Of a DNA stretch of 26,212 bases, positions 1 to 15,022 are shown one piece after another. The stretch lies in IMG/VR virus record IMGVR_UViG_3300024346_008868, positions 1 to 26,212 of that record. The stretch is one strand, 5' to 3'. Below the pieces are notes generated by a model. It did not search any database, had not been told where the DNA came from, and worked only from the letters and a program-made list of their open reading frames with translations. The number at the start of each line of letters is the position of its first letter. The stretch's first letter is position 1. The position numbers and the translations under genes are program-made. This DNA is from a virus.

Positions 1-1053
1 CATATTGATTATTGGATTGTATGTGATACAGGATCAACAGATAAAACTTGTGAAATTATTAGGAAATTTTTTGAAGAAAAAGGAATACCTGGTGAATTAC
101 ATATTGATGAATGGGTAGGTTATGACCATAATAAAACATTAATGATGAAAAGGGCTAAAGATAAAGCCGATTATGTTTTACACTTAGACGCTGATGATTT
201 ATTAATTAATGATTTAGAATTTACTAAAGATGATATAGGAGGGGATGCTTATTATATAAATGTAATTCGTGGAGAATTTAAATATAAAGCTTTTATTATT
301 TTTAATAATAGATTAACTTGGAGATTTTGTGGTGTTGCTCATACCATTATAAAATGCGAAGAAAAAGAACATTATTCTACAAAAGATATAACAAATAGAA
401 ATCATTATGTTTCATCAGAAGGAATTGGTTCAAGAGCTTTTGATCCAAATAAGTTCTTATACGATGCTGAAAAACTAAAAAAACAATTTTTTGATACTTT
501 ATTGTCTGATCCTGATAATTTAAATAGTAGGTCAGTTTTTTACACAGCTCAAAGTTACCAAGATTCTGGAATGTATGATGAGGCAATTAAATGGTATCGA
601 CTATATACAAAATTAAATAATAGCTGGATTGAAGAACTTTTTGAATCACATATGAGAATTGCTATTTGTATGATGAAACTTAACTATGGTCTAACCGAGA
701 TTGAAAGAGAAATGTCAATTGCTCTTAACTTATGTGCCGACAGGGCTGAACCAAACTTCCATATTGGAAAATATTGTAATCAAATGGGTGAATTTGAAAA
801 AGGATATTCATATTTAAAAACAGCAAAATCTAAAAACCTTAATAGTGTAAAAGAAAAATATATTTTATTTATTCAAGAAAATATGTACGGAGATTATAAC
901 AATGATGAATTATCAGTATCTTGTTTCTGGACAAAAAGATTTGAAGAAGGTTACCAATATTTGTTAGAAATACTAAATGATTTTAGATTTGAAAGTCAAA
1001 AAGAAAGATTATTAACTAATCAAAAACATTTTCAAGACAATTTTACTTTTTAA
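1..1053 (+). CDS. Family 2 glycosyltransferase with TPR-like C-terminus (5' truncated)
   Basis: The frame is open from base 1, so the true start lies outside the window; the first internal ATG (142) is not the start. Bases 25-42 encode DTGSTD, the nucleotide-binding signature of family 2 (GT-A fold) glycosyltransferases, and bases 187-198 encode DADD, the metal and sugar-nucleotide binding DxD motif. After about base 530 the protein becomes helical, with repeated Tyr/Ala patterns (AQSYQDSGMYDEAIKWY) that look like TPR repeats, often found behind this GT2 domain. It should move a sugar from a nucleotide donor to an unknown acceptor in the cytoplasm. It is followed after 9 bases by the next sugar gene, so it probably belongs to the same operon. 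The family is clear; the donor and acceptor cannot be read from the sequence. Confidence 0.85.
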   Translation, partial: HIDYWIVCDTGSTDKTCEIIRKFFEEKGIPGELHIDEWVGYDHNKTLMMKRAKDKADYVLHLDADDLLINDLEFTKDDIGGDAYYINVIRGEFKYKAFIIFNNRLTWRFCGVAHTIIKCEEKEHYSTKDITNRNHYVSSEGIGSRAFDPNKFLYDAEKLKKQFFDTLLSDPDNLNSRSVFYTAQSYQDSGMYDEAIKWYRLYTKLNNSWIEELFESHMRIAICMMKLNYGLTEIEREMSIALNLCADRAEPNFHIGKYCNQMGEFEKGYSYLKTAKSKNLNSVKEKYILFIQENMYGDYNNDELSVSCFWTKRFEEGYQYLLEILNDFRFESQKERLLTNQKHFQDNFTF

Positions 1054-1062
1054 TTTATACAT

Positions 1063-2220
1063 ATGTCCATTTATATTATTACTCCATGCTCTAGGATCCA
1101 ATCCCTCCATGAGATTTCTAAAACTATACCCAAAGAATGTATTTGGGTTATTGTTTATGATTCCAATTATAATGATCAAATATTACCATACGGTGATATA
1201 ATTTTAAGACCAAAAAACATAAGAGGTAATTATGGGAAACCACATATAAATTATGCTTTAGATGTATTAAAACTAAAAGATTCAGACTGGTTATACGTTC
1301 TAGACGATGATAATATTATTCATCCAGATTGGTATGAAACCATATCTTCAGTTTGTAGTGATAGATATAATATTTTAAGTTGGGGACAATTATGGAATGA
1401 TGGTACAATAAGACTAAAACCAACAGAGCATATGGTGTTTCGAGCAGTCGATCAAGCAAGCTACATGTGGAGATTTGGATTTAATCCAGTAGCTAGATTT
1501 GATGAAAATTATTTTGGAGATGGCAAGTTTGTTGAAAAATTAGGTCAAAAATCCCATCTAATTGATAAATATATTAGCTACTATAACTATCTCTCCCTAG
1601 AATCATTTACAGAGGAAGAAAAATTAGATTTTAGTGCTGGGACTCCAAAAAATAACAATAATTCTACTATGGATTTTAATAAAAATAATTTACTGACGGC
1701 CCAAGATGCCATGAATTTATCAAGGATAGAACAACTTGACTATTCAACTATTAACACAACTGATGTATCTCACATCAAAGAAATCTATTTAAAATCTATA
1801 AAATACAGAGGAGGAACTGCCTGTGAGGTTGGTAGCTTAGGTGGTCAAGGCACACTCTCGTTATGCTTAGCTGGACTTGATGTAACCTCATATGATAATG
1901 ATGGACACAAAGGATTTAAAGATAAACGAGAAACTTTGTGTAAAGATTTTAATGTTAATTGGATTGTTCAAGAAGGACTTTATGCCTTAACTGATGATGT
2001 AAAATATGATGTTGTATTCCATGACTCATATCACTTTGAAGAGGTAATTCCTGAATTGGTAGCATTTTGGTTTTATAAAGTTAAAAATAAAGGAATGTTA
2101 ATTGTTCATGATGTTGAAACTTTTAGTCATGAAAGATTTATGTTTTTAATTGGTAATCCAAGATTTGAAAGAACAAAAGATATTCATGGTAGAGAACTTG
2201 GAACATATTATAAAAATTAA
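1063..2220 (+). CDS. Bifunctional GT-A glycosyltransferase-like / SAM methyltransferase fusion
   Basis: This 385-residue protein appears to join two enzymes. Residues 1 to about 190 begin with a Rossmann-like strand (YIITPCSR) and contain DDD at 81-83 inside LYVLDDDN, the metal-binding pattern of GT-A glycosyltransferases. RFDENYFGDG near 150 is where such enzymes carry their catalytic acid. After an Asn-rich linker at about 195-210, residues 250-385 resemble a class I methyltransferase: EVGS at 255-258 fits the glycine-rich SAM loop, YDND follows one strand later, and VVFHDSYHFE and LIVHDVE fit later strands of the Methyltransf_24 type. The stop codon overlaps the next start by one base (TAATG), implying coupled translation. 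The GT call is fairly secure and the methyltransferase call good; that one chain does both steps on one glycan is inference. Confidence 0.7.
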   Translation: MSIYIITPCSRIQSLHEISKTIPKECIWVIVYDSNYNDQILPYGDIILRPKNIRGNYGKPHINYALDVLKLKDSDWLYVLDDDNIIHPDWYETISSVCSDRYNILSWGQLWNDGTIRLKPTEHMVFRAVDQASYMWRFGFNPVARFDENYFGDGKFVEKLGQKSHLIDKYISYYNYLSLESFTEEEKLDFSAGTPKNNNNSTMDFNKNNLLTAQDAMNLSRIEQLDYSTINTTDVSHIKEIYLKSIKYRGGTACEVGSLGGQGTLSLCLAGLDVTSYDNDGHKGFKDKRETLCKDFNVNWIVQEGLYALTDDVKYDVVFHDSYHFEEVIPELVAFWFYKVKNKGMLIVHDVETFSHERFMFLIGNPRFERTKDIHGRELGTYYKN

Positions 2221-3455
2221 TGAACCCAACAAATTGTGATACTTTAATTATTGGTGCTGGAATAACAGGACTTTCATTAGCTTCTTTTTTAGATACTGAT
2301 GATTATCTAATTGTTGAAAGGGATTCTGAGGTTGGGGGGTATTGCAAAACAATAATTAGAAATGGGTTTGTTTGGGACTACTCAGGACACTTCTTTCACT
2401 TTAATAATCAAGAAATTAAAGATTATGTATTAGAGAATATTGAGTGTGACGTAGTTACAGTTAACAAAAAAAGTCACATATATTATAAAAACCGATATAT
2501 AGATTTTCCATTTCAAAACAACATAGACCAATTACCAACAGATGAGTTTGTTGAGTGTTTATATGACCTAAAAAACACGGGAAATGGTGAAGTTAATACA
2601 TTCACAGATTTTGTTAAAAACACGTTAGGAGAGTCAATTTGTGATAAGTTTATAATACCATATAATGAAAAGTTATATGCTTGTGATTTAAATAATTTAG
2701 ACTATGATGCGATGGGAAGGTTCTTTCCAAAACCAACAAATTTTAATGATTTACTTACCCAACTAAAAAACAAAAATAAGACCGAATCTTACAATGATAC
2801 ATTCATATACCCAACAGGTGGCAGTGTTGAATTTGTTAAATCATTACTTAAACGAGTAAATCAAGATAATATTTTATTAAATACTGAAATTATTAATATT
2901 GACCTTAAAAATAAAATAGCTCAAACAAATACCGGATACATCAAGTTTAATAAATTGGTGAATACAATGCCGTTTGATACCTTTATGAAATTGACAGGTG
3001 AGAAAATTAATAATCTTTCATCAAATAAAGTAGTTGTATTTAATTTAGGATTTAATAAGTTAACTGACATCAGTTCAAATTGGGTGTATTATCCTAATGA
3101 TGAAATATTCTACAGAGTTGGATTTTATAATAATATATTTAAAACCGATAAGATGAGTTTGTATGTTGAAATTGGTATGGATAAAAATCAAGAAGTTGAT
3201 GAACAAATTTTATTAAAAAAGATACTAGAAGACTTAAAAAAATCAGGTGTAATTGTTAATCAAAAATTAATAGACCATCAAATGATTATTATGAATCCAG
3301 CGTATGTTCACATCACAAAAGAATCAAAAGAAATTTATAATGACTGGTGTGAAAAAAATAATCCAAACGGTTTATTTTCTATTGGTAGATATGGTTCTTG
3401 GACATATTGTTCTATTGAGGATAATATTATACAAGCAAAAAATTTGTTAGTATAA
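2220..3455 (+). CDS. FAD-dependent UDP-galactopyranose mutase-like oxidoreductase
   Basis: The 411-residue protein opens with a dinucleotide-binding fold: IIGAGITGLSLASFL at about residues 10-24 (GxGxxG), then an acidic strand end (IVERDSEVGG) that would bind the FAD ribose. SGHFFHF near residue 55 resembles the histidine-rich stretch after the first strands of UDP-galactopyranose mutases. IPYNEKLYACDLNNLD and MGRFFPKP in the middle are typical of the amine-oxidase/mutase-like flavoproteins found in surface polysaccharide clusters. The C-terminus (SIGRYGSWTYCSIEDNI) fits the last FAD-contacting segment. True mutases convert UDP-Galp to UDP-Galf; this protein may do that or a related sugar ring or redox step. 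It overlaps the upstream gene by one base. The flavoprotein class is certain; the mutase reaction is plausible only. Confidence 0.7.
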   Translation: MNPTNCDTLIIGAGITGLSLASFLDTDDYLIVERDSEVGGYCKTIIRNGFVWDYSGHFFHFNNQEIKDYVLENIECDVVTVNKKSHIYYKNRYIDFPFQNNIDQLPTDEFVECLYDLKNTGNGEVNTFTDFVKNTLGESICDKFIIPYNEKLYACDLNNLDYDAMGRFFPKPTNFNDLLTQLKNKNKTESYNDTFIYPTGGSVEFVKSLLKRVNQDNILLNTEIINIDLKNKIAQTNTGYIKFNKLVNTMPFDTFMKLTGEKINNLSSNKVVVFNLGFNKLTDISSNWVYYPNDEIFYRVGFYNNIFKTDKMSLYVEIGMDKNQEVDEQILLKKILEDLKKSGVIVNQKLIDHQMIIMNPAYVHITKESKEIYNDWCEKNNPNGLFSIGRYGSWTYCSIEDNIIQAKNLLV

Positions 3456-3494
3456 ACTTGGTTATTTAAAATAATTATATTATATTATCCATCA

Positions 3495-3502
3495 TATTTA
3501 TA
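3495..3502 (+). promoter_or_regulatory. TATTTATA box upstream of the second sugar-gene block
   Basis: TATTTATA lies 20 bases before the ATG at 3523, in a 67-base gap between two sugar genes. The same box (TATTTATA or TATTTATC) occurs in six further intergenic gaps of the window. The surroundings are A/T only, so this single copy could be chance; the recurrence is the evidence. It suggests that genes from 3523 onward have their own promoter, shared in type with the tail genes. Confidence 0.45.
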
Positions 3503-3522
3503 ATAAATAAGGTTTACATTTA

Positions 3523-4518
3523 ATGAAGGATTTAATTTTAATCACGGCTTATTGTCCAACACCAGAAAAAAGAAAAATACTACATGATTTAGTAATTGGA
3601 CTACAACCTATTAAAAAAGATTTTGATTTAATGGTTGTTAGTCATACTCCTATTTCATCTGATGTTCAAGAACATGTTAATTGGGCTATATATGATGAAG
3701 ATAATGAATTATTAACAGGATGGGAATATCAAAATCAACCATGGTTCCACCCAGATAACAAATTAATTCAATCTGTCTTTTTTGGAAAAGGAAATACATA
3801 CCTTCCTGTCCATAAACAATTAATTACTGGTTATTCATTAGCTAAAACGTTTGGATATGAAAAAATCCAATGTATAGAATATGATGCTTATTATCAAGAT
3901 TTTACTGAATTTTATGATAACTCAAAAGCATTAGATAAATATGATGCTATTTTATATACCAAAGAAAATGGATATGGTGAAATTAATATTCAATTTGGTT
4001 TAGGACATTTTCACGCTACTAAAATTTCATCATTAGATAAAAGAGCTTTTAACTATAATCGAGAAGAAATGATGGAGGAAATACTTGATTCTAAATCTAA
4101 AACTACTGAAAAAAGAACTCAAGATATTTACACATCTAATAACAATAAAGTTTTATTTAAAGACCATTCATTATTATTAACAGGAGGAAATAAAGTTAGA
4201 TTAGTTAATTTTCATGCTTTAGATCTTGAAATACAATGGGCTGTTCCATACTATAACCAATATACAGATGAAATTGATTTCGTAGCATGGAATGAAGATA
4301 GAGATTATCCTTCAAAAGTAATTGTTATTGTAAATGATAATAAATTATTTGATTTTTCATTAGGTGGTAAATTTCATTGGTCTACTAAATCTTTAGGTAA
4401 ATTTAATGATATTAATACTATTACAGTAATAGTAAACAATAAACTAAAAAACCACATTGAATTAAATGATTCAAATAGGAAACTATTTAAACAAACTAAC
4501 TTTATAAAATATGATTGA
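3523..4518 (+). CDS. GT-A-like glycosyltransferase-family protein, paralogue of the gene at 6395
   Basis: I do not recognise a named family with certainty. The 331-residue protein starts with ILITAYCPTPEKRKILHDL and is clearly related in its first 130 residues to the protein at 6395-7312 (ALITSFCNTEEKLKVLHDN). Both have a short acidic motif at the same place: EYDAYY at 119-124 here, DYD at 118-120 there. That position and the preceding hydrophobic strand fit the DxD metal site of GT-A glycosyltransferases, though here the first Asp is Glu. The last 90 residues are beta-rich (IVIVNDNKLFDFSL, ITVIVNN) and unlike the paralogue. It lies directly behind a TATTTATA box and overlaps the next gene by 8 bases. 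A sugar-transfer role is inferred from the motif and the cluster. Confidence 0.55.
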   Translation: MKDLILITAYCPTPEKRKILHDLVIGLQPIKKDFDLMVVSHTPISSDVQEHVNWAIYDEDNELLTGWEYQNQPWFHPDNKLIQSVFFGKGNTYLPVHKQLITGYSLAKTFGYEKIQCIEYDAYYQDFTEFYDNSKALDKYDAILYTKENGYGEINIQFGLGHFHATKISSLDKRAFNYNREEMMEEILDSKSKTTEKRTQDIYTSNNNKVLFKDHSLLLTGGNKVRLVNFHALDLEIQWAVPYYNQYTDEIDFVAWNEDRDYPSKVIVIVNDNKLFDFSLGGKFHWSTKSLGKFNDINTITVIVNNKLKNHIELNDSNRKLFKQTNFIKYD

Positions 4519-5443
4519 ATTTATTGAATTTAATTCTGAAAAAACAGGAATTAAATTTTTGTCCCATTTTTCTACCCCAAAAACAGTAACTCTTCTTGTA
4601 TCAGATGGTTATACTGGTCTTAATTTATGGAAAGATAAAATTACAATATCCCCAAATTTTTATTATCATTTTAATGCCCAAATTTTCTCATCAGAAAGAC
4701 AATTTGAAATATTTGATGAATATGAAAATGAAAAATTATTTTCTGTTTTTTTAAAATTAAATAATTATCCTTCAATAGAAAAGATTGATAAATTAAAAAT
4801 TTTAAAATCCTATAAATATAATTCATTTGAACAGGGTGCTGGATTACCTGTATTTGAAATTTTTTTAAATAAAGAATATGAAAATGAAACCGTAAAAATC
4901 CAAGAAGGGGATATAGTTTTTGATATTGGAGCTAATATAGGTATATTCAGTTTATATTCAATATGTAATTTAGCTAAAGAAATACATTGTTTTGAACCTG
5001 GAGAAAAACAGTTTAATGCCATAAAAAATAATTTGAGTAGTAAATTTAATAATTTATATGCTAATAATTTAGCTGTTACAAAAAATAAAGGAACTACAAA
5101 ATTTTACTTAAATAATTCTTCTGTAACTAATAGCACTTTTGCTAAATTATCTGACAATTATATAGAAGTAGAAACTATTGATATAGAAACTTATGTTAAT
5201 AATAATAATATTTTAAAAATAGATTATTTAAAAATAGATTGTGAAGGGGGAGAATATGAAATAATAGAATTCATAAGTGAAAATTTTTTAAAAGAAAAAA
5301 TAAATAAAATATGTTTAGAAGTTCATATTTTTAAAAATGAAGATAATTTAAAATTAGAAAAATTGATAAATAAATTACATAAATGTGGTTTTATAGTAGA
5401 TAAAAAAGGAAACATGCTTTATTGTAAAAATATAATTTTCTAA
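4511..5443 (+). CDS. FkbM-type SAM-dependent methyltransferase (copy 1 of a tandem pair)
   Basis: The 310-residue protein has a beta-rich N-terminal domain of about 95 residues and an FkbM methyltransferase domain. FDIGANIGIFS (Asp at residue 138) is the SAM-binding loop, IHCFEPGEKQF carries the acidic residue that holds the ribose, and IDYLKIDCEGGEYEII near 245 is the signature after strand 4 of the FkbM family. Known FkbM enzymes O-methylate hydroxyls of sugars or polyketides, so a glycan-capping role fits the neighbours. The N-terminal domain (SDGYTGLNLW) also occurs in the next gene but not in the third FkbM gene at 10495. It overlaps the upstream gene by 8 bases. The coding sequence is extremely A/T-rich, with one 60-base stretch (5281-5340) holding only six G or C. 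Confidence 0.85.
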   Translation: MIEFIEFNSEKTGIKFLSHFSTPKTVTLLVSDGYTGLNLWKDKITISPNFYYHFNAQIFSSERQFEIFDEYENEKLFSVFLKLNNYPSIEKIDKLKILKSYKYNSFEQGAGLPVFEIFLNKEYENETVKIQEGDIVFDIGANIGIFSLYSICNLAKEIHCFEPGEKQFNAIKNNLSSKFNNLYANNLAVTKNKGTTKFYLNNSSVTNSTFAKLSDNYIEVETIDIETYVNNNNILKIDYLKIDCEGGEYEIIEFISENFLKEKINKICLEVHIFKNEDNLKLEKLINKLHKCGFIVDKKGNMLYCKNIIF

Positions 5444-5457
5444 AATATAAAACATAC

Positions 5458-6393
5458 GTGATAATATTTAAAGAATTTATAGATAATAAAAAAGGAATCC
5501 AATTCGAATCCTTAGAACCCCTAAATATTATTATTAAAATAATAGATGGGTATACAGGGCTTTGTTCATATCAAGAAAAAATGTATGTTAAACCTAATAT
5601 CATTTATTATTTTTCCCACCCAGTAGAAATATATCATAGAAGATTTGAAATATGGGATGATGAGTTAAAAACAATGTATTTAAAAATAGATTCTACATTA
5701 AATGAATCTATAAATTTAAAATATTTAGATAAATATAATGTATTAAAAGATTATAAATACAACAACCCCCAAGATAAAGACCCTGCTCTTTCATTATATG
5801 AAATATTTATCACTAAAATATATGATAAATTTTTTGAAGTAAACAAAGGAGATGTTGTTGTTGATATTGGAGGGAATTTAGGATTATTTTCATACTATTC
5901 ATTATGTAAAGGAGCTAAACAAGTTTATTGTTTTGAACCCTCACCTCAATCTTATAATTGTATAAATGAAAATTTTAATTTCCTTAATTTAATAGTTGAA
6001 CAATCAGCTGTAGGGGCTAAAGATGGTGAAGTAACTTTTAATATTAATCCTGAAAGTTCTATTAATTCTTCTATGTTTGCTAGTGATGAAAATAGTCAAA
6101 CAATTACCTGTAAGTCTATTAATCTTAACAATTATATAAAAAATAATAATATAGAAAAAATTGACTATCTTAAAATAGATTGTGAGGGAGCAGAGTATGA
6201 AATTATTGAAAGTTTAGACGAACATTACCTAACTAATAATATTAATAAAATATGTTTAGAGTATCATTTAAATAAAAACGGCGAAATCCATACTATTTTA
6301 AATAAATTAAAAAAATGTGGTTTTAATGTTAATTTTGAATATGGAGACTATCAGATTAATGATGAATTAGGAATAATATATGCTCATAAATAA
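5458..6393 (+). CDS. FkbM-type SAM-dependent methyltransferase (copy 2 of a tandem pair)
   Basis: This 311-residue paralogue of the preceding gene matches it over the full length. The N-terminal domain has IDGYTGLCSY where copy 1 has SDGYTGLNLW. The SAM loop is VDIGGNLGLFS (Asp 136), the ribose-binding strand is YCFEPSPQSY, and the family signature is IDYLKIDCEGAEYEII. I take the GTG at 5458 as start because no in-frame ATG is near and the translated start (MIIFKEF) lines up with copy 1 (MIEFIEF). The arrangement points to an in-place gene duplication followed by strong divergence. The likely role is O-methylation of a sugar, perhaps at a different position or on a different sugar from copy 1. 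Confidence 0.85.
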   Translation: MIIFKEFIDNKKGIQFESLEPLNIIIKIIDGYTGLCSYQEKMYVKPNIIYYFSHPVEIYHRRFEIWDDELKTMYLKIDSTLNESINLKYLDKYNVLKDYKYNNPQDKDPALSLYEIFITKIYDKFFEVNKGDVVVDIGGNLGLFSYYSLCKGAKQVYCFEPSPQSYNCINENFNFLNLIVEQSAVGAKDGEVTFNINPESSINSSMFASDENSQTITCKSINLNNYIKNNNIEKIDYLKIDCEGAEYEIIESLDEHYLTNNINKICLEYHLNKNGEIHTILNKLKKCGFNVNFEYGDYQINDELGIIYAHK

Positions 6394-6394
6394 A

Positions 6395-7312
6395 ATGAAA
6401 AAAATTGCTCTAATAACTAGTTTTTGTAATACTGAAGAAAAACTTAAAGTGTTACATGATAATGTAAAAACAATAAAAGATTTAGGGTTAGATGTGATGG
6501 TATTTTCGCATTTTCAACTTCCAAAAAATATTAATAATCTTATAGATTATACTATAATTTCAAAGGAAAATCCTATAATTACTTGGCCCGAAAAAACTAT
6601 CAATCATTGGATTTCAATCCCACACAAAACCTTTAGGTATGATATGGCTACAAGTTTAGTTGATTATGGTTATGCTGTTTTAAATCAAATAAAACGAATG
6701 GCTTCTTTAGCGTTATCTATGGATTATGATTCTTTTTTTATTATAGATTATGATCTTAATATTACAAACTATGTAAAAAGTGTTTTATTAGATAATAAAA
6801 AAAATAGTTTTTTTCCTGCTAAAAATGTAAATGGTGAGACATGGCTAATAGGATTACGTTTAATCTCTTTAGATAGAGAACATTTAACTAGGTTTAAAAA
6901 TTTAATTACTAAAGAAAGTTATTTATTTAATAGTACAGATGTTGCTGAATCCTGGCTTCATAAAGCTATAAATTTTATCCCAGGAATTATTGAAGGTGAG
7001 CCTTTAGAAGATTTAATTTATAATTATAGTAATGTAGATTTTTTTGATCAATCTATAATAAAAGGGTTAAAATTATTTATACACAAAATCCCTAATAATG
7101 AACTTAAATTAATTTTTTATGATTTTGAAGAAATAAAAAATTTTATAATAAAAACAGAAGATTTTGAATATGAATATAATGTTGAAAAATGGGAGGAAAT
7201 AAATTTACCTTATAAAGAATATACTTCTTTTATTGTATTTTATGAAGAAAAAGAATATGATTTTACTGATATAATTTCTAAAATTATCTTTAATACATTT
7301 ATAAAACAATAA
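6395..7312 (+). CDS. GT-A-like glycosyltransferase-family protein, paralogue of the gene at 3523
   Basis: The 305-residue protein begins MKKIALITSFCNTEEKLKVL, aligning with the start of the protein at 3523 (MKDLILITAYCPTPEKRKIL). That is why I choose the ATG at 6395 rather than the in-frame ATG at 6380, which would overlap the upstream gene. FFIIDYDLN has Asp 118 and Asp 120 after a hydrophobic strand, a proper DxD motif, so this copy keeps the metal site that the paralogue shows as Glu-Tyr-Asp. The middle (ETWLIGLRLISLDREHL) and C-terminus are divergent. One base separates its stop from the next ATG region. The sugar donor and acceptor are unknown, and no named family is assigned. Confidence 0.55.
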   Translation: MKKIALITSFCNTEEKLKVLHDNVKTIKDLGLDVMVFSHFQLPKNINNLIDYTIISKENPIITWPEKTINHWISIPHKTFRYDMATSLVDYGYAVLNQIKRMASLALSMDYDSFFIIDYDLNITNYVKSVLLDNKKNSFFPAKNVNGETWLIGLRLISLDREHLTRFKNLITKESYLFNSTDVAESWLHKAINFIPGIIEGEPLEDLIYNYSNVDFFDQSIIKGLKLFIHKIPNNELKLIFYDFEEIKNFIIKTEDFEYEYNVEKWEEINLPYKEYTSFIVFYEEKEYDFTDIISKIIFNTFIKQ

Positions 7313-7313
7313 T

Positions 7314-9617
7314 ATGATTAAACCAAAGTTATACATTCATGGTTCTTATATAGGAACTACAGGTTATAATAATCATACTAGAGATTTTTTTAGAAAATTA
7401 TCTAATCACATCCAACTTAAAATCAGAAATTTTACTGTTGGTAGTTCATGGAACGGAAATAATGAAACACCTCATGATGGAGAAAAATATTTAACCGATT
7501 TAGATAAATCTCTTTTATATAAGCAACGATTATGGACTAGTGGGGAACAAATGGATGATTTTACTATTTATCCATCACAAGAAAAAGAATTTAATCACGA
7601 TATTGATTTAATTTTAAATGAAACTAACCATTATCTTTTTTATCAAAAGTATACAAAACCAAAAATTGCTTATAATGTTTGGGAATCAACACTCCAACCT
7701 AAAGATTTCTTTAATAAATTAAAAGAATTTGATGAATTATGGGTTCCTTCTAAATGGCAAAAAGAATGTTCTATTAAACAGGGTTATCCTGAAGATAAAA
7801 TTAAAGTAGTTCCTGAAGGAGTAGATGTTGATACATTTTATCCTGAACAAGTTGATTTATTAGAGGAATATAAAGATGGTAGATTTAAGTTTTTATTAAT
7901 GGGTAGATGGGACTATAGAAAATCCACAAAAGAAATAATCCAAACATTTTTAAAAACATTTTCAGATGATGAACCTGTAGATTTAGTAGTTTCTGTTGAT
8001 AATATGTGGGGCGAACAGATGGATGGTTTTAAATCAACAGAAGAAAGATTAGCTAGTTATGGTCTAGTACACCCAAGAGTTAAAATTATTCACTTCCCTT
8101 CAAGAGAAGATTATATTAAATACCTTAAAACAGGTCACGTATTTGTTTCTTGTGCTCGTTCCGAAGGTTGGAATTTACCTTTAATTGAGGCAATGGCTTG
8201 TGGAACTCCATCTATTTATTCTAATTGTTCTGCCCAATTAGAATTTGCTGAAGGTAAAGGATTTCCTATTAATATTATAGGGGAAAAAATAGCAGATGCT
8301 AATGACTATGGTAGATACAAAATGAGTGATCTTCCAGGTAATTATTATGAACCTGATTTTAATCATTTATCTCAAGTAATGAAATATGTTTATGAAAATT
8401 ATGAATTATGTAAACAAAAATCAATAACAGAATCTAATGATTTACGAGATAAATTTAATTGGGAAAGAATAGGTGAAATTGGTTATAAAACTATAATGGA
8501 ATTTTACGATAAAATAAATTCAAAAGAATATAAAAGTCAAATCCCCCAAAATGAAATTAAAGTAAGTTATTTAGAGGGACCTAAAGTAGAAATCGTTGGA
8601 TTTAAAGATGAAGAATACTTAGTAGAATTTTTAAATGAAAAAGATGAAGTAGTTTATAGTGATACCATCACTACTAATATGTGGACTTCGTGTTTAAGAA
8701 AGTATTATACTAAATGGAAAATTAGAATTAATGGAGTTATTGTTAATGAATTTGATTTAAATAATAAACGAGTTTTAATATCTATGGAATCTAAATCTAT
8801 AGGTGATACTATTGCTTGGGCTCCTTACGTAGTTGAGTTTGCTAAAAAACATAATTGTAAAGTATTCTTTAGTAGTTTTCATAACTCATTTTTTGAAGGA
8901 CTAGAACAATACAAAGATATAAACTTTATAAACCCAGGACAAGATGTTGACTGCTATACTATTTACAGATTAGGATGGTTTAGAGGGGAAGATAATAAAT
9001 GGGATAAATTTGAAATGTATCCTAATGTTATTAATTTAATTCCACTACAACAAACCACAACTGATATATTAGGTTTAGAATATAAGGAATTAAATCACGG
9101 ATTAAATTTTACCCCTAAACACAATCCAGAAACTAAAAAATATGTAATTTTAGCTCCAAATGCTACCGCCGGATGTAAAGAATGGACGTATGATAATTGG
9201 GTATCGTTGTCTATGATAATTAAAGATTTAGGATACGATATAATCCTGTTAACTCAAAACCCATATTATATAGACGGGGTAAAAAACATATGGGGAGAAA
9301 CTTGGGATATAGTAATGAATTACTTACATTATGCTGAGGCATTTATAGGACTAGGTTCCGGCCTATCTTGGTTAAACTGGGCATTAGGAAAACATACTTA
9401 TATGATTAATGGGTTTTCTAAAAAAGGGCATGAATTTACATCTAATGTAACAAGAATATTTAATGATAATGTTTGTATATTTTGTTGGAATGATGAAGTA
9501 TTTACTTTTGATGCTGGGGATTGGGATTGGTGTCCTGTATACCAAGGAACTTCAAAGCAACATATTTGTCAAAAGTCAATTACACCAATACAAGTATTTA
9601 ATAAATTAAAGTTGTGA
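7314..9617 (+). CDS. GT4 glycosyltransferase fused to an autotransporter-type heptosyltransferase (TibC/AAH-like) domain
   Basis: Two enzymes sit in one 767-residue chain. Residues 1 to about 400 are a GT4/GT1-type GT-B glycosyltransferase: GTTGYNNHTRDF at the start, VVPEGVDVDTFYP and GRWDYRKST (about 195) in the middle, and ARSEGWNLPLIEAMACGTPS (about 280-300), the nucleotide-sugar binding motif. Residues about 413-767 resemble the full bacterial autotransporter heptosyltransferase family. A beta-rich lead (GPKVEIVGF, EEYLVEFLNE, TNMWTSCLRKYY) is followed by a GT9-like domain (SKSIGDTIAWAPYVVEF, GLGSGLSWLNWALGK). Cys 721, 724, 740 and 752 form CX2CX15CX11C, like the four-cysteine metal site of TibC. 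Known members transfer heptose to serines of repetitive autotransporter passengers. The stop overlaps the next start by four bases (GTGA). Family assignment is from remembered motifs; the sugar used is unknown. Confidence 0.85.
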   Translation: MIKPKLYIHGSYIGTTGYNNHTRDFFRKLSNHIQLKIRNFTVGSSWNGNNETPHDGEKYLTDLDKSLLYKQRLWTSGEQMDDFTIYPSQEKEFNHDIDLILNETNHYLFYQKYTKPKIAYNVWESTLQPKDFFNKLKEFDELWVPSKWQKECSIKQGYPEDKIKVVPEGVDVDTFYPEQVDLLEEYKDGRFKFLLMGRWDYRKSTKEIIQTFLKTFSDDEPVDLVVSVDNMWGEQMDGFKSTEERLASYGLVHPRVKIIHFPSREDYIKYLKTGHVFVSCARSEGWNLPLIEAMACGTPSIYSNCSAQLEFAEGKGFPINIIGEKIADANDYGRYKMSDLPGNYYEPDFNHLSQVMKYVYENYELCKQKSITESNDLRDKFNWERIGEIGYKTIMEFYDKINSKEYKSQIPQNEIKVSYLEGPKVEIVGFKDEEYLVEFLNEKDEVVYSDTITTNMWTSCLRKYYTKWKIRINGVIVNEFDLNNKRVLISMESKSIGDTIAWAPYVVEFAKKHNCKVFFSSFHNSFFEGLEQYKDINFINPGQDVDCYTIYRLGWFRGEDNKWDKFEMYPNVINLIPLQQTTTDILGLEYKELNHGLNFTPKHNPETKKYVILAPNATAGCKEWTYDNWVSLSMIIKDLGYDIILLTQNPYYIDGVKNIWGETWDIVMNYLHYAEAFIGLGSGLSWLNWALGKHTYMINGFSKKGHEFTSNVTRIFNDNVCIFCWNDEVFTFDAGDWDWCPVYQGTSKQHICQKSITPIQVFNKLKL

Positions 9618-10504
9618 GAAAAGTATTAGTTTTTATAGAATCGTTTTCAATAGGAGATACAGTAGCGGCTGTTCCTTATGTTAATAAATTTCAAGAAGTA
9701 AACTCAACAGATGATGTTTTTATTAGTATAAATGATTGGTTAATACCTTATTTTTCTGCTGTTTACCCTAATTTAAAATTTATAGGTAAAAATACAGGTT
9801 ATGTTTTTGATAAAATTATTAACTTAATATATGATTATAATAAACCCCTCCAACAGGGTTATGCTGAACAATTAGGTTTTATTAATGCTCCTTATATTAG
9901 ACCTAATATTTTAATTCCTAATATGGAACGTTCTATAAAAAACAAATATGTTACTATAGGTGTTCATTCTACAATCCAAATGAAATATTGGAATCACCCA
10001 AAAGGTAAAAAGGTTCAACCTGAAGCCCCTTATTGGAATGAATTATGTGGGATGCTTCGTAAAGAAGGTTATACGCCAGTAGTTGTAGAACAAGATGAAC
10101 TATTTGGAGCTAATACTTTAAAAAATGGTTTACCAAATAAAGCTAATAAAAAATTCGGACAATCATTTTTAGAATCAATGAATTTAATTTACCATTCAGA
10201 ACTATACATAGGATTATCCTCAGGTATGTCTTGGGTTGCTCATGCTATGGGTAAACCAGTAGCTATGATAGCTAATTTTACTGAAGATTGGAATGAATTT
10301 GATTTATCAACACCTGATTATATTAGAATAACAAATAAAAATGTATGTCATGGATGTTGGAATTTAATTAATAAAGAATTTGAATTTGATCCTCATGGGG
10401 ATTGGTATTGGTGTCCAAAACATCAAAATACTAATAGACAATTTGAGTGTCATACATCAATAACACCAGAACATGTATTTAATGAAATAAAAAAATGGAT
10501 ATAA
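9614..10504 (+). CDS. Autotransporter-heptosyltransferase-like (GT9-type) glycosyltransferase, stand-alone copy
   Basis: This 296-residue protein is a paralogue of the C-terminal domain of the gene before it. It starts directly at the GT9-like domain (IESFSIGDTVAAVPYVNKF) and lacks the beta-rich lead. YIGLSSGMSWVAHAMGKPVA is the donor-binding segment. Cys 245, 248, 267 and 279 form CX2CX18CX11C with WYWCP and CHTSITPEHV around them, the same four-cysteine pattern as its neighbour. GTG at 9614 is taken as start because it overlaps the upstream stop (GTGA) and puts MRKVLVFIESFSIGDT in register with the paralogue. Close coupling suggests the two products act on the same substrate, either as partners in a mixed oligomer or in successive steps. 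The next gene overlaps by 10 bases. Confidence 0.8.
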   Translation: MRKVLVFIESFSIGDTVAAVPYVNKFQEVNSTDDVFISINDWLIPYFSAVYPNLKFIGKNTGYVFDKIINLIYDYNKPLQQGYAEQLGFINAPYIRPNILIPNMERSIKNKYVTIGVHSTIQMKYWNHPKGKKVQPEAPYWNELCGMLRKEGYTPVVVEQDELFGANTLKNGLPNKANKKFGQSFLESMNLIYHSELYIGLSSGMSWVAHAMGKPVAMIANFTEDWNEFDLSTPDYIRITNKNVCHGCWNLINKEFEFDPHGDWYWCPKHQNTNRQFECHTSITPEHVFNEIKKWI

Positions 10505-11178
10505 ACAATTTTGATTGGGGTTGGATGGAAAATCCCGAAGTAACAGATTTAAAACCTCTTTTAATTAAGGAAGTTTTTGAAGATAGAATTTATGAAAAAT
10601 TCTTTACTATTGATGAAGGTGATATTGTATTAGATATTGGTTCTTCTGTAGGACCTTTTGCTTATTCTATACTTGACAAAAAACCAAAACATATTTATTG
10701 TTTAGAACCAAGTTCCATAGAATTTTTAACATTAAATAAAAATTTAAGAGGGTTTCCTGTAACACCAATAAAAAAAGGAATTGGTGAACATAATAATGGA
10801 TTTTATTCTGATATGGTTTATGGAGAACTTGGTAATGAAAAAACTTTTATCGAAAGTATAAATTTTACTACTTTATTAAAAGATTATAGTTTAGATAAAA
10901 TTGATTTTTTTAAAATTGATTGCGAGGGAGGTGAATATCATGTTTTTACTCCTGAACATTTAGAATTTTTAAAAACAATTTCTAAAATAACTGGTGAGTG
11001 GCATTTACAAACAGAAGAAGAAAAATCATTATTTAGAAATTTTAGAGATAATATTTTACCTAATTTTAATAATTATGAAGTTTATTCGGTAGATAATATT
11101 GATATAAAATGGGATTTATGGAATGAACATTTTATAGAATATTATAGGCAAGTTATTATTTATATAGATAATCGTTAA
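10495..11178 (+). CDS. FkbM-type SAM-dependent methyltransferase (third copy, short form)
   Basis: The 227-residue protein contains LDIGSSVGPFA (Asp 47) as SAM loop, IYCLEPSSIEF for the ribose-binding strand and IDFFKIDCEGGEYHVF as the FkbM signature. It is a single-domain enzyme without the DGYTG-type N-terminal domain of the copies at 4511 and 5458, and its sequence is distant from them, so it is not a product of the same duplication. It overlaps the heptosyltransferase-like gene by 10 bases and is the last gene of the sugar cluster, 32 bases before the serine-rich virion protein. A role in O-methylating a sugar added by its upstream neighbours is the simplest reading, but the substrate is inferred from position only. 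Confidence 0.85.
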   Translation: MDINNFDWGWMENPEVTDLKPLLIKEVFEDRIYEKFFTIDEGDIVLDIGSSVGPFAYSILDKKPKHIYCLEPSSIEFLTLNKNLRGFPVTPIKKGIGEHNNGFYSDMVYGELGNEKTFIESINFTTLLKDYSLDKIDFFKIDCEGGEYHVFTPEHLEFLKTISKITGEWHLQTEEEKSLFRNFRDNILPNFNNYEVYSVDNIDIKWDLWNEHFIEYYRQVIIYIDNR

Positions 11179-11194
11179 AATTTTAAAACCCACA

Positions 11195-11203
11195 ATATTT
11201 ATC
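11195..11203 (+). promoter_or_regulatory. ATATTTATC box before the serine-rich repeat gene
   Basis: TATTTATC (11196-11203) is a one-base variant of the recurring box and lies only 7 bases before the ATG at 11211. If the box is a -10 element, the transcript would start at or next to the ATG, giving a leaderless or nearly leaderless message. Confidence 0.4.
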
Positions 11204-11210
11204 AATAAAC

Positions 11211-12050
11211 ATGCCATTACAAACTTTATCAAACACAAATATTACAAACGGTAATGTTATTCAAGCAGCAGATGTATCTCAATCTATTGATGCTTTTACC
11301 GGAGTTGTAGGATACGCTATCACTGTTTCTGGTTCATTTACATTTTCAGGAGCAACTACAGGTAGTGGATATTTTGCTAACGCTGTAAGTAGTTCTCGTT
11401 CTATAAGTAGTTCATATTCCATAAGTTCATCAGTAGCCATAAGTAGTTCATATGCTGCTTCCTCGTTAAGTAGTTCATATGCTTCTTCATCTTTAAGTAG
11501 TTCATATGCTACTAGTGCTTCATATGCTATAAGCAGTTCATATTCTATAAGTTCATCAGTAGCCATAAGTAGTTCATATGCTACTAGTGCTTCATATGCT
11601 ATAAGTAGTTCATATGCTGTAAGCAGTTCATATTCCATAAGTTCATCAGTAGCCATAAGTAGTTCATATGCTGCTTCCTCGTTAAGTAGTTCATATGCTT
11701 CTTCATCTTTAAGTAGTTCATATGCTACTAGTGCTTCATTAGCCATATCAGCAGACCAACTAGTAAATCAATATTATGATAATGGATCCGCTGTATTACC
11801 CGCAAATTTTAAATTTGTAGCAGGCAAAACAATAATGACATCAGGAGCCGCTACAAGTAGTGTGTTTCCTGTTTTATTAGGTAAAGTATTAGGTGATACT
11901 GTATGGATTAATGCCTCATACCCTGAAGCCTTCTCAACCACTCCTGGTCAATCTCTTCTTAAAGTTAATGTATCAAGCAGTGGCCAAGTATTAATTAGTG
12001 GAGCTCTTTCAGACTCAGGAACAGTTATATTTACAGGAACATATATTTAA
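11211..12050 (+). CDS. Serine-rich hexapeptide-repeat virion protein (probable glycan carrier)
   Basis: The 279-residue protein has three parts. Residues 1-59 (VSQSIDAFTGVVGYAITVSG, then a short Gly/Thr strand region) are a head seen in structural proteins of marine phages, to my memory. Residues 60-180 are a Ser-rich repeat built mainly on six residues, Y-A/S-I/V/T-S-S/A-S, with four nine-residue variants containing Leu; 66 of the 121 residues are Ser. Alternating Tyr/Ile positions suggest stacked strands, as in a beta-solenoid or fibrous trimer. Residues 181-279 form a beta-rich C-terminal domain ending FTGTYI. No signal peptide or membrane segment is visible, as expected for a virion part. 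It lies between the sugar cluster and the tail genes. A role as acceptor of the glycan is inferred from the Ser content and the heptosyltransferase-like neighbours; tail fibre or decoration protein are both possible. Confidence 0.7.
   Translation: MPLQTLSNTNITNGNVIQAADVSQSIDAFTGVVGYAITVSGSFTFSGATTGSGYFANAVSSSRSISSSYSISSSVAISSSYAASSLSSSYASSSLSSSYATSASYAISSSYSISSSVAISSSYATSASYAISSSYAVSSSYSISSSVAISSSYAASSLSSSYASSSLSSSYATSASLAISADQLVNQYYDNGSAVLPANFKFVAGKTIMTSGAATSSVFPVLLGKVLGDTVWINASYPEAFSTTPGQSLLKVNVSSSGQVLISGALSDSGTVIFTGTYI
11409..11523 (+). repeat. 115-base perfect direct repeat, copy 1
   Basis: This block is identical to 11625-11739, 216 bases downstream (72 codons, so in frame). It begins AGTTCATATTCC; the base before the block and the base after it both differ between the copies. 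Perfect identity over 115 bases, including synonymous positions, points to a recent duplication or gene conversion. Confidence 0.9.
11625..11739 (+). repeat. 115-base perfect direct repeat, copy 2
   Basis: Second copy of the block at 11409-11523. The bases between the copies (11524-11624) contain a partial third copy that starts near 11531 and keeps the segment AGTTCATCAGTAGCCATAAG but has lost the two Leu-containing nine-residue units. Confidence 0.9.
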
Positions 12051-12060
12051 AAAATAATAA

Positions 12061-12312
12061 ATGGAAAATAAAGTTTTAACCCCCGAAGAGTTACAAAAAT
12101 TAAAAAACACTCAAACTAACAGAAATGCTTTAATGAGAGATTTTGGTTTTATTGAATATCAAATTCAAGAATTAGAATTACAAAAAGAAGGCCTTATTGA
12201 GGCATTATCAAAAATAAAAAATGATGAAACTCAAATAGCTAAAGAATTACAAGAAAAATATGGTGAAGGAGCTGTTAACATAGATAAGGGAGAATTCATA
12301 CCCTCTAATTAA
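12061..12312 (+). CDS. Small coiled-coil protein of unknown function
   Basis: I do not recognise this 83-residue protein. It is rich in Glu, Lys, Gln and Leu, and residues 10-65 look helical, with a heptad-like spacing (IEYQIQELELQKEGLIEALSK) that suggests a short coiled coil. The C-terminus (GEGAVNIDKGEFIPSN) is polar. It follows the Ser-rich gene by 10 bases with no box between them, so the two are probably co-transcribed, and it precedes the sheath gene by 57 bases. A chaperone, adaptor or minor structural role would suit its size and position, but nothing in the sequence decides this. Confidence 0.7.
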   Translation: MENKVLTPEELQKLKNTQTNRNALMRDFGFIEYQIQELELQKEGLIEALSKIKNDETQIAKELQEKYGEGAVNIDKGEFIPSN

Positions 12313-12331
12313 TTTTTAACTCCTCTTGTCA

Positions 12332-12339
12332 TATTTATC
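12332..12339 (+). promoter_or_regulatory. TATTTATC box before the tail sheath gene
   Basis: The box lies 30 bases before the sheath ATG at 12370, in a 57-base gap. The leader carries no Shine-Dalgarno sequence; the start is preceded by TTTTAGAAAC. Confidence 0.45.
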
Positions 12340-12369
12340 ACAGAATAAAATCAATATAATTTTAGAAAC

Positions 12370-14487
12370 ATGGCAGAAACATTAATATCTCCTGGCGTAC
12401 TAGCAAGAGAAAACGACCAATCCTTTATCACGCAGCAACCTATTACAGTAGGTGCTGCTATTATTGGCCCTACAGTTAAAGGTCCTGTAGAAGTCCCCAC
12501 TGTTGTTACATCATATAGTGAATATGAAAATAAATTCGGTACTGGATTTTTAAGTGGTAGTCAAGTTTATACTTATTTCACCTCAATCGCGGCTTATAAT
12601 TATTTTGCAAACGGTGGTGAAACTTTATTAGTATCTAGAGTAACTACAGGTTCATTTACAGAAGCGACTACAGTAACTGGTTTGACTGGTTCTAATGGTG
12701 TTGTAAATGCAACTCCTTTAACAACAGCTTCAACTACTCTTGGTATAACTCCATTCTCAGCAAGTTTTGTTGCTGTTGGTTCAAGCTCATTTAATGTAAA
12801 TAATACTATTATTAATCTTACAGGAAGTGCTCAAGCAAATACTATTGGACAAATTAATATTAATGCTTCTACCTTTACAACCCCAACAACCTTTGCTTCA
12901 GGAATAGTAACTATTTTAAATGCTAGTTCTTCCGCAACTGCTTATACTTCATCTTTACAATACATAACAGCCTCTAGTAATATTGCTAATTTAACTTTAT
13001 CTTCTACTTCAAATGTTAGTGGAATAATTGGAAATACTTTCTTTACAATTTCAGGTAGTACTACAACTAATTTTAGTGGTGGTAAAAATACAGCAGCTTT
13101 AGTATTAGCAACTTTATCTGAAGGTGCTTTAATGAACGATACAGGTAGTGAAGATATTAGTGGTTCATTAGCATCAGGTTCTTCTGATAATATCAGATGG
13201 CAGGTTGCTAATAGTGATACTTCACAAGGTACTTTCTCATTAATTATCCGTCAAGGTAATGATAATATAGATAATCCTATTGTATTAGAAACTTGGACTA
13301 ACTTATCAATGGATCCAACAGCTCCTAATTTTGTTACTAAAGTATTAGGTGATCAAAAGAAAAATTATAATTCAACAACAATCCAAATTGAAGTATCAGG
13401 ATCTGTTCCTAACTTCTCAAGATACGTAAGAGTTAAATCAGTAGCTACTCCTACACCAAATTATTTCGATAATACGGGTAATGCAAAAACTCAATTTACA
13501 GCTTCAATTCCCGTAAATAGCAGTGGTTCATTTGCTAACGCAGTTGGAGATTTATATGCTGCTAGTTATGCTGGTGGATCCGGAGCTGCTTATTATGGAG
13601 ATATTACTACTGTAAGCAATATTCAAGGTTTAAATACAGGTAGTTATGATAATATGATTAATTTATTATCAAACCAAGATGATTATAAATTTAACGTTTT
13701 AATTACTCCAGGTATATTTAACTCACTCCACCCAACACAAACTACAAATATTATTAATAATACTCAAAACAGAGGTGATAATATTTATGTACTTGATTTA
13801 GTACCTTATACAGAACAAAATATTTCTTCAGTAGCTGCTCAAGCAAATGCAAGAAATACTTCATATGCTGCTTCATACTGGCCTTGGGTTCAAACAATAG
13901 AACCTAATACTGGAGCATTAGTATGGGTACCTGCTTCAACATTAGTAGCTGGTGTTTACGCTTATAACGATAGCGTTTCAGAACCTTGGTTTGCACCTGC
14001 AGGTATTAATAGAGGTGGTTTATCAACAGTAGTAAGAGCTGCTCAAAAATTATCACAAACACAAAGGGATAACTTATACATCAATAAAATAAATCCAATC
14101 GCTACTTTCCCAGGTACTGGGGTTGTAGTATACGGACAGAAAACATTACAAACTAAAGCAAGTGCTTTAGATCGTGTAAATGTTCGTCGTTTATTAATTG
14201 CAGTTAAGTCATACATTTCTCAAATTGCAAATAACTTAGTATTTGAACAAAATACTATAGCAACAAGAAATGCTTTCTTATCTCAAGTTAACCCATATTT
14301 AACATCAGTTCAACAACGACAAGGTTTATATGCTTTTAAAGTAATTATGGACTCTAGCAACAACACACCTGATGTAATCGATAGGAACCAATTAGTAGGT
14401 CAAATTTATCTTCAACCAACTAAAACTGCTGAATTCATTTACTTGAACTTCAATATTTTACCAACTGGAGCAACTTTCCCTGCATAA
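12370..14487 (+). CDS. Contractile tail sheath protein (T4 gp18-like)
   Basis: The 705-residue protein forms the contractile outer tube of the tail. The N-terminus (ISPGVLARENDQS, then VGAAIIGPTVKGPVEVP) is the usual start of phage sheath proteins. The C-terminal half carries the conserved core: WPWVQT and WFAPAGINRGGLS (about 540), then INPIATFPGTGVVVYGQKTL and DRVNVRRLLIAVKSYI, which build the ring contacts. The region at about 85-260 is Ser/Thr-rich and variable in character, probably a surface-exposed insertion; T4 gp18 is of similar size (659). It has its own upstream TATTTATC box and is followed by the tube gene, the standard order. The family call is very secure. Confidence 0.95.
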   Translation: MAETLISPGVLARENDQSFITQQPITVGAAIIGPTVKGPVEVPTVVTSYSEYENKFGTGFLSGSQVYTYFTSIAAYNYFANGGETLLVSRVTTGSFTEATTVTGLTGSNGVVNATPLTTASTTLGITPFSASFVAVGSSSFNVNNTIINLTGSAQANTIGQININASTFTTPTTFASGIVTILNASSSATAYTSSLQYITASSNIANLTLSSTSNVSGIIGNTFFTISGSTTTNFSGGKNTAALVLATLSEGALMNDTGSEDISGSLASGSSDNIRWQVANSDTSQGTFSLIIRQGNDNIDNPIVLETWTNLSMDPTAPNFVTKVLGDQKKNYNSTTIQIEVSGSVPNFSRYVRVKSVATPTPNYFDNTGNAKTQFTASIPVNSSGSFANAVGDLYAASYAGGSGAAYYGDITTVSNIQGLNTGSYDNMINLLSNQDDYKFNVLITPGIFNSLHPTQTTNIINNTQNRGDNIYVLDLVPYTEQNISSVAAQANARNTSYAASYWPWVQTIEPNTGALVWVPASTLVAGVYAYNDSVSEPWFAPAGINRGGLSTVVRAAQKLSQTQRDNLYINKINPIATFPGTGVVVYGQKTLQTKASALDRVNVRRLLIAVKSYISQIANNLVFEQNTIATRNAFLSQVNPYLTSVQQRQGLYAFKVIMDSSNNTPDVIDRNQLVGQIYLQPTKTAEFIYLNFNILPTGATFPA

Positions 14488-14533: not shown

Positions 14534-15022
14534 ATGGCAATTTTAGATCCAAACGAAATATTTTTTACCGCCTTTGAACCTAAAGTACAGAATAGATTTA
14601 TTCTTTACGTAGACGGAATCCCTTCATACTTGATCAAAGGGGTAAGTGGAATAGAATTAACTCAAGAAGAAATTGTATTAAACCACATCAACGTTTACCG
14701 TAAAGTAAAAGGTAAATCTAAGTGGGGAGATATTACAATGACTTTATTTGATCCAATTACACCTTCAGGAGCTCAAGCAACAATGGAATGGGTTCGTTTA
14801 CACCACGAATCAGTAACTGGTCGTGATGGTTATAGCGATTTCTACAAGAAAGACTTAACAATTGATATTTTAGGTCCAGTAGGTGACATCGTTTCAGAAT
14901 GGGTAATTAAAGGTGCATTTATTAAAACAGCTAATTTCGGTGAATATAACTGGGATACAGACGCTGCAGCACAAAACCTTACAATTACAGTAGGAATGGA
15001 TTACTGCGTATTGAATTTCTAA
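14534..15022 (+). CDS. Tail tube protein (T4 gp19-like)
   Basis: The 162-residue protein is the inner tail tube subunit, stacked in hexamers inside the sheath around the DNA channel. The sequence pattern is typical of the gp19-like family: PKVQNRFILYVDGIPSYLIK at the start, a beta-rich middle (KGKSKWGDITMTLFDPI), the helix TMEWVRLHHESVTG, and strands DLTIDILGPVGDIVSEWVIKG and NLTITVGMDYCVL at the end. Length is as expected (T4 gp19, 163 residues). An intrinsic terminator follows 20 bases after the stop, so transcription from the box at 14504 can produce a short tube-only message. Base and codon use show more GAC, AAC and CGT than neighbours, consistent with high expression. Confidence 0.95.
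   Translation: MAILDPNEIFFTAFEPKVQNRFILYVDGIPSYLIKGVSGIELTQEEIVLNHINVYRKVKGKSKWGDITMTLFDPITPSGAQATMEWVRLHHESVTGRDGYSDFYKKDLTIDILGPVGDIVSEWVIKGAFIKTANFGEYNWDTDAAAQNLTITVGMDYCVLNF

Follow-up and report, generated by a model that had tools for sequence, protein, structure and literature searches.

A GT4 and TibC-Like Glycosyltransferase Fusion Encoded Among Tail and Fibre Genes of Uncultured Aquatic Tailed Phages

Closest Described Systems

TibC-type enzymes have been described as stand-alone dodecamers that act on bacterial virulence autotransporters, and the TibC/AAH bacterial autotransporter heptosyltransferases (BAHT; TIGR04414; PDB 4rap and 4rb4) are among the closest known relatives of the phage protein considered here. 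It has been reported that TibC initiates on protein Ser, that Asp-110, Thr-226, Lys-230, Arg-286, Trp-305, and four iron-finger cysteines are in use, with Arg-286 contacting adenine N1, and that a beta-hairpin thumb with Phe-265/Val-266 at its tip makes the contacts that build the dodecamer (PMC4358343). The phage protein shares with these enzymes the beta-barrel lead, the GT-B core, the four-Cys iron-finger, the catalytic Asp, and the donor-site Thr/Lys/Trp, but its TibC-like domain lies behind a GT4 domain, the thumb hairpin is deleted, Arg-286 is replaced, the family score is below the cut-off, and the gene is a phage gene without an autotransporter partner among the window ORFs or the families found.

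Several deposited phage proteins are closer in architecture. WWT39291.1 from the isolated Microcystis phage Mel-JY01 likewise carries a domain of this GT4 family and a TibC-like domain (TIGR04414, 317 bits) in one chain and is deposited as 'methyltransferase FkbM', but an insert of about 470 residues separates its halves and brings it to 1226 aa, and it is about 44% identical to the fusion. Similarly, A0A6J5SVC1 ('Glycosyltransferase Aah/TibC') and A0A6J5SUQ0, UniProt entries from uncultured Caudovirales phages, are among the best BFVD structural matches but have 924 and 936 aa and are deposited with automatic names only. Automatic names such as 'heptosyltransferase' or 'FkbM' conceal the fusion family. 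Papers on TibC-like phage enzymes were not found among open-licence PMC papers, nor was the fusion itself described there, so the remark in an earlier note on this DNA that such a fusion had not been described holds provisionally, with related sequences already deposited.

Two further systems are relevant to function. dGT1 of Streptococcus parasanguinis is a dual-domain glycosyltransferase that extends the glycans of the Ser-rich Fap1 sequentially (PMC5063993); like the fusion, it has two glycosyltransferase domains in one chain and is a precedent for sequential action, but its domains are unrelated (DUF1792 GT-D and GT-A), and it is bacterial and extends an existing glycan. Phage-encoded glycosylation of capsid and tail proteins in mycobacteriophage virions (Freeman et al. 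2023, as cited in PMC12619734) resembles the role proposed below, in other phages.

The Window and Its Gene Neighbourhood

The window is the whole 26,212-base stretch of DNA that was analysed. Its features are as follows.

1–26,212: IMG/VR virus record IMGVR_UViG_3300024346_008868
1–7312, plus strand: 5' glycan gene cluster (Pfam/NCBIfam profile matches)
within 1–7312, plus strand: 5'-truncated protein with a weak TPR match (profile search)
2220–3455, plus strand: amine-oxidase-like oxidoreductase (profile search)
3523–4518 and 6380–7312, plus strand: two related GT-A-like proteins, without Pfam or NCBIfam match
at 4511 and 5458, plus strand: two FkbM methyltransferases (profile search)
7314–9617, plus strand: the fusion, GT4 glycosyltransferase and TibC/AAH-like glycosyltransferase in one open frame of 767 aa
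7314–8522, plus strand: GT4 half, residues about 1–403 (PF00534, phrog_2170, GT4 fold match)
8553–8753, plus strand: beta-barrel lead, residues about 414–480 (seven strands in the model; TIGR04414 match starts at 414)
8754–9608, plus strand: TibC-like catalytic core and iron-finger (alignments to 4rap)
9614–10504, plus strand: second TIGR04414-like glycosyltransferase, hep2, 296 aa (TIGR04414, 193.9 bits)
10495–11178, plus strand: FkbM-type methyltransferase (TIGR01444, 38.9 bits)
11211–12050: protein rich in Ser, with SSSYA repeats, located after the glycan cluster and before the tail sheath
12370–14487, plus strand: tail sheath (PHROG tail sheath, 1.3e-70)
14534–15022, plus strand: tail tube, after the sheath (PHROG, 1.9e-22)

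From 12370 onward, PHROG profiles identify the tail genes of a contractile-tailed phage, namely sheath, tube, tape measure, and an amidase-bearing protein. Rfam and tRNA scans of the window gave no match. The neighbourhood partly recurs elsewhere: in 52 of 69 non-redundant loci, no more than 8 kb separates the fusion from a tail sheath gene, which commonly lies about 318 bp downstream; a homologue of the 10495–11178 FkbM gene directly overlaps the stop of the fusion in 12/69; and relatives of the GT-A-like pair, whose GT-A assignment comes from a weak fold match of the 3523 family, occur in 20/69.

Structure and Occurrence of the Fusion

The earlier note had read 7314–9617 as a complete GT4 domain followed by a complete heptosyltransferase-like domain with its beta-rich lead, and this is borne out by profiles, model, and homologues, with the GT4 part at about residues 1–400 and the TibC/AAH-like part at 414–765. 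Residues 15–388 match PF00534 (4.5e-12; 46.3 bits, above the gathering score of 26.4) and phrog_2170 (5.2e-32), and the E-x7-E motif (E284, E292) and the R198/K203 phosphate-binding pair are invariant in 30 homologues. An AlphaFold2 model of the fusion (pLDDT 84.5) matches GT4 enzymes with a TM of about 0.7; its domains are good internally, while their mutual placing is uncertain (pTM 0.59).

A first scan returned many full-length homologues with 59–72% identity, and a profile scan of IMG/VR found relatives in 378 viral loci, the best 80 of which match the fusion essentially end to end at 57–71% identity. A search for the architecture of GT4 with a TIGR04414-like domain, as the earlier note had suggested, shows that the fusion recurs: when 124 non-redundant TibC-like frames were sorted, 100 were direct GT4 fusions (contig ends truncate 12 of these), 2 had an insert between the halves, 7 had another N-terminal extension, in some cases including a more distant GT4 domain, and 15 were listed alone, of which 6 are cut at contig ends and 8 of the remaining 9 are the tandem partner, hep2.

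These counts bear on whether an assembly or annotation artefact joined two genes. A broken copy of the fusion gene in one contig (L016) counts in favour of such an artefact, but the junction is identical in about 100 non-redundant open frames from independent metagenomes and is also present, with an insert, in the isolated phage PP395634. Assembly joining is excluded because the junction is conserved in so many independent contigs, and an artefact is vanishingly improbable. The fusion is a genuine and widespread phage protein in which both domains are complete and the catalytic residues are intact.

Two further observations concern the integrity and architecture of relatives. The break in L016 lies at 8753–8879, in the GT4 half, and represents either a pseudogene or a sequencing error; a close copy in L007 is intact. 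In L253 (3907–8271), a 1454-aa chain combines FkbM, DXD glycosyltransferase, GT4, and TibC-like domains.

Comparison of the TibC-Like Half with TibC

The C-terminal half matches TIGR04414 (1.3e-57) over residues 414–765 and profile positions 11–371 of 374. The match to the family that the earlier note expected was therefore obtained, although its 195.5 bits fall 4.5 bits below the curated NCBIfam cut-off of 200; relatives in L023, L027, and L028 exceed that cut-off with 317, 332, and 277 bits. TibC is the best PDB match both by sequence (4rap, phmmer 1.1e-34) and by fold (4rb4, TM 0.75 by target length). The beta-barrel is present, with strands at 414–479 in the model, and the fold match covers 385 columns against the 380 residues of TibC.

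The window protein keeps D498, T618, K622, and W686, together with Cys 721, 724, 740, and 752. The equivalents of D110, T226, K230, and W305 (TibC numbering) are found in 71/71 fused C-halves and in 12/12 members of the hep2 set, and the four iron-finger cysteines in 70/71 and 12/12, respectively, with L027 as the sole exception. Arg-286, in contrast, is replaced by Val in the window protein and by V/I/T/L in 37 of 38 fused rows, whereas 7 of 8 stand-alone phage enzymes have Arg at this position. The thumb region has 20 residues in the window protein versus 30 in TibC, and the hairpin is absent; its length in the 38 fused rows has a median of 20 and a maximum of 34, compared with a median of 32 in the stand-alone phage enzymes, 7 of 8 of which keep both Arg and 32–33 residues. 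Fusion and the loss of thumb and Arg are thus associated, and since there are few independent events, cause and effect are not concluded. The fused and stand-alone forms provide a natural comparison for the roles of the thumb and Arg-286.

With Arg-286 replaced and no dodecamer thumb in the window protein, transfer of heptose to Ser cannot be carried over from TibC. Judged by its sequence, the fusion may act in the manner of autotransporter heptosyltransferases, but neither 'heptosyl' nor 'dodecamer' can be taken for granted, and in view of Arg-286, the thumb, the score cut-off, and the autotransporter partner, it should not be filed as a BAHT. As a separate observation, the fusion in L027 (997–3348) keeps Arg-286 in its TibC-like half and has lost all four iron-finger cysteines.

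Relatives, Tandem Partner, and Phylogeny

The reading of 7314–9617 as one fused TibC-like enzyme stands, and to it must be added the downstream gene, which the earlier note did not mention and which encodes a second TIGR04414-like protein. The GTG start of hep2 overlaps the stop of the fusion by 4 bases; hep2 is without the beta-barrel lead but keeps a thumb-length insertion, the catalytic residues, and the cysteines, and it accompanies the fusion in 8/69 loci.

The fusion belongs to a common phage family found in many uncultured aquatic tailed phages. In related phages, the same slot beside sheath and tube is filled by a TibC-like enzyme that stands alone, with about 400 aa, so the expectation of stand-alone enzymes of about 400 residues is true of the bacterial members and of this related phage clade. 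In the tree, one clade (100/100) unites most direct fusions. A second (100/98) is made up of the stand-alone enzymes beside tube genes, together with a single fusion from outside the first clade, and the tandem second enzymes group in a third (100/100). Within the fusion clade, some rows that bear stand-alone or hep2 labels are contig-cut fusions.

Five cellular loci on genome contigs, all in MAGs, have the GT4 half with a full-length or split partner. A cellular origin of the fusion was considered and rejected, as the evidence comes only from MAG contigs and at least two of them (L026 and L030) have adjoining genes for phage tails or fibres; 395 sampled genomes of the phylum of the MAG holding L028 yielded no further match to TIGR04414 over its full length. 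In L030, separate neighbouring proteins (5551–8358 and 9707–12481) carry the GT4 half, accompanied by an FkbM domain, and the TibC-like domain; this split version sits near a Gly-Ser repeat frame, a point in favour of the role proposed below.

Proposed Role and Order of Steps

The fusion, its conservation, its intact catalytic residues, and its setting among tail and fibre genes are observed; the enzyme activity, acceptor, donor, and step order are what we infer. This genomic setting suggests a phage that decorates parts of its own particle with sugars. We propose, with a chance of being right that we put no higher and no lower than that of being wrong, that this two-domain glycosyltransferase, encoded with tail/fibre genes, O-glycosylates phage structural proteins in two steps. 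The TibC-like half would take a sugar off its nucleotide donor and attach it, most likely at Ser/Thr hydroxyls of fibres or tail appendages. A second sugar would be put onto the same glycan by the GT4 half; adjacent FkbM methyltransferases and, in some phages, the tandem TibC-like enzyme would complete a methylated glycan. The earlier note's suggestion that a single chain might both begin a glycan on Ser and lengthen it stays a conditional reading of the sequence. One point against the proposed role is that related phages have the TibC-like enzyme without GT4.

The same neighbourhood can be read differently. The cluster genes are of the polysaccharide type (GT4, GT-A-like, a mutase-resembling amine-oxidase-like oxidoreductase, and FkbM), and the core of TibC is of the GT9 heptosyltransferase type (PF01075), as would fit an enzyme that, while the phage infects, builds or alters a host surface glycan (LPS or capsule) so as to exclude superinfection or change the receptor, and leaves virion proteins untouched. 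This explanation appears rather unlikely, given that the nearest solved relative with beta-barrel and iron-finger works on protein Ser (PMC4358343), that the genes lie within a tail/fibre module, and that neither a flippase nor a polymerase was recognised among the window genes with Pfam, NCBIfam, and PHROG profiles.

Within glycosylation of a virion protein, the order of the two steps may also be reversed, with the GT4 half priming Ser/Thr and the TibC-like half extending. In Gram-positive bacteria, serine-rich repeat adhesins are primed by GtfA, itself a GT4 enzyme. With this precedent and the changed donor site of the C-half, where the replacement of Arg-286 in 37/38 fused C-halves points to a changed donor and perhaps a changed acceptor, the reverse order is possible, and the GT4 half is conserved as well as the C-half. 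We nevertheless regard it as quite unlikely, in that TibC itself starts on Ser (PMC4358343) and stand-alone TibC-like enzymes without a GT4 half exist in related phages.

A TibC relative occurs in hundreds of tailed-phage contigs, mostly fused to GT4 and among tail/fibre genes, and the fusion is a concrete candidate for particle glycosylation by uncultured aquatic phages, with Mel-JY01 as an isolated phage suited to testing virion glycosylation.

Candidate Acceptors

In several loci, the fusion adjoins giant frames of Gly-Ser-Ser/Gly-Thr-Ser triplets with up to 47% Ser, and on visual inspection the C-terminal regions of two of these resemble tail-fibre chaperone domains. Collagen-like Gly-[Ser/Thr]-[Ser/Thr] frames turn up in the vicinity of the fusion in 10 of 13 long contigs, usually as the sole such cluster of the contig. 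Their distance from the fusion is shorter than that of random positions (Fisher combined p = 2.4e-4), also in contigs where the sheath is 25–260 kb away. In the reverse test, a TibC-like or GT4 half was found in 11/120 loci with Ser/Thr collagen repeats versus 0/117 Gly-Pro-X loci (p = 8e-4), a difference that lineage could explain in part, as the Gly-Pro-X control phages may differ in lineage and host.

A collagen-like fibre as the universal partner is unsupported in the sheath-adjacent lineage, where such a frame occurs within 7 kb upstream in 4/56 loci with the fusion versus 0/15 without it (not significant). The SSSYA protein was likewise rejected as a dedicated acceptor, its family being present with and without the enzyme (12/58 loci with a TibC-like gene versus 4/14 without) and so not tied to that gene; its members have a conserved N-terminus and a variable middle, and most are not Ser-rich. 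Because fibres are close in some contigs, while repeats are rare in sheath-adjacent loci and the SSSYA neighbour is inconsistent, a virion protein that is probably a Ser/Thr-rich fibre is given about an even chance of being the acceptor. A more specific proposal is offered only tentatively and is more doubtful than otherwise: GT4 fusion, along with thumb and Arg loss, would have produced a family of single-chain two-step O-glycosyltransferases that use a new donor and hyperglycosylate collagen-like tail fibres of the giant Gly-Ser/Thr type.

The giant frames were also recorded in their own right. One runs on the minus strand of L063 from 13156 to about 23142, and others occur in L012, L014, L015, L016, L021, and L048, the frames reaching up to 3,328 aa; they probably break assemblies, as several contigs end inside such frames. 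In the window, the amidase-bearing tail protein (21482–24970) contains a short linker, GSSGSSGSSGTSG, which is similar in kind to the giant fibres.
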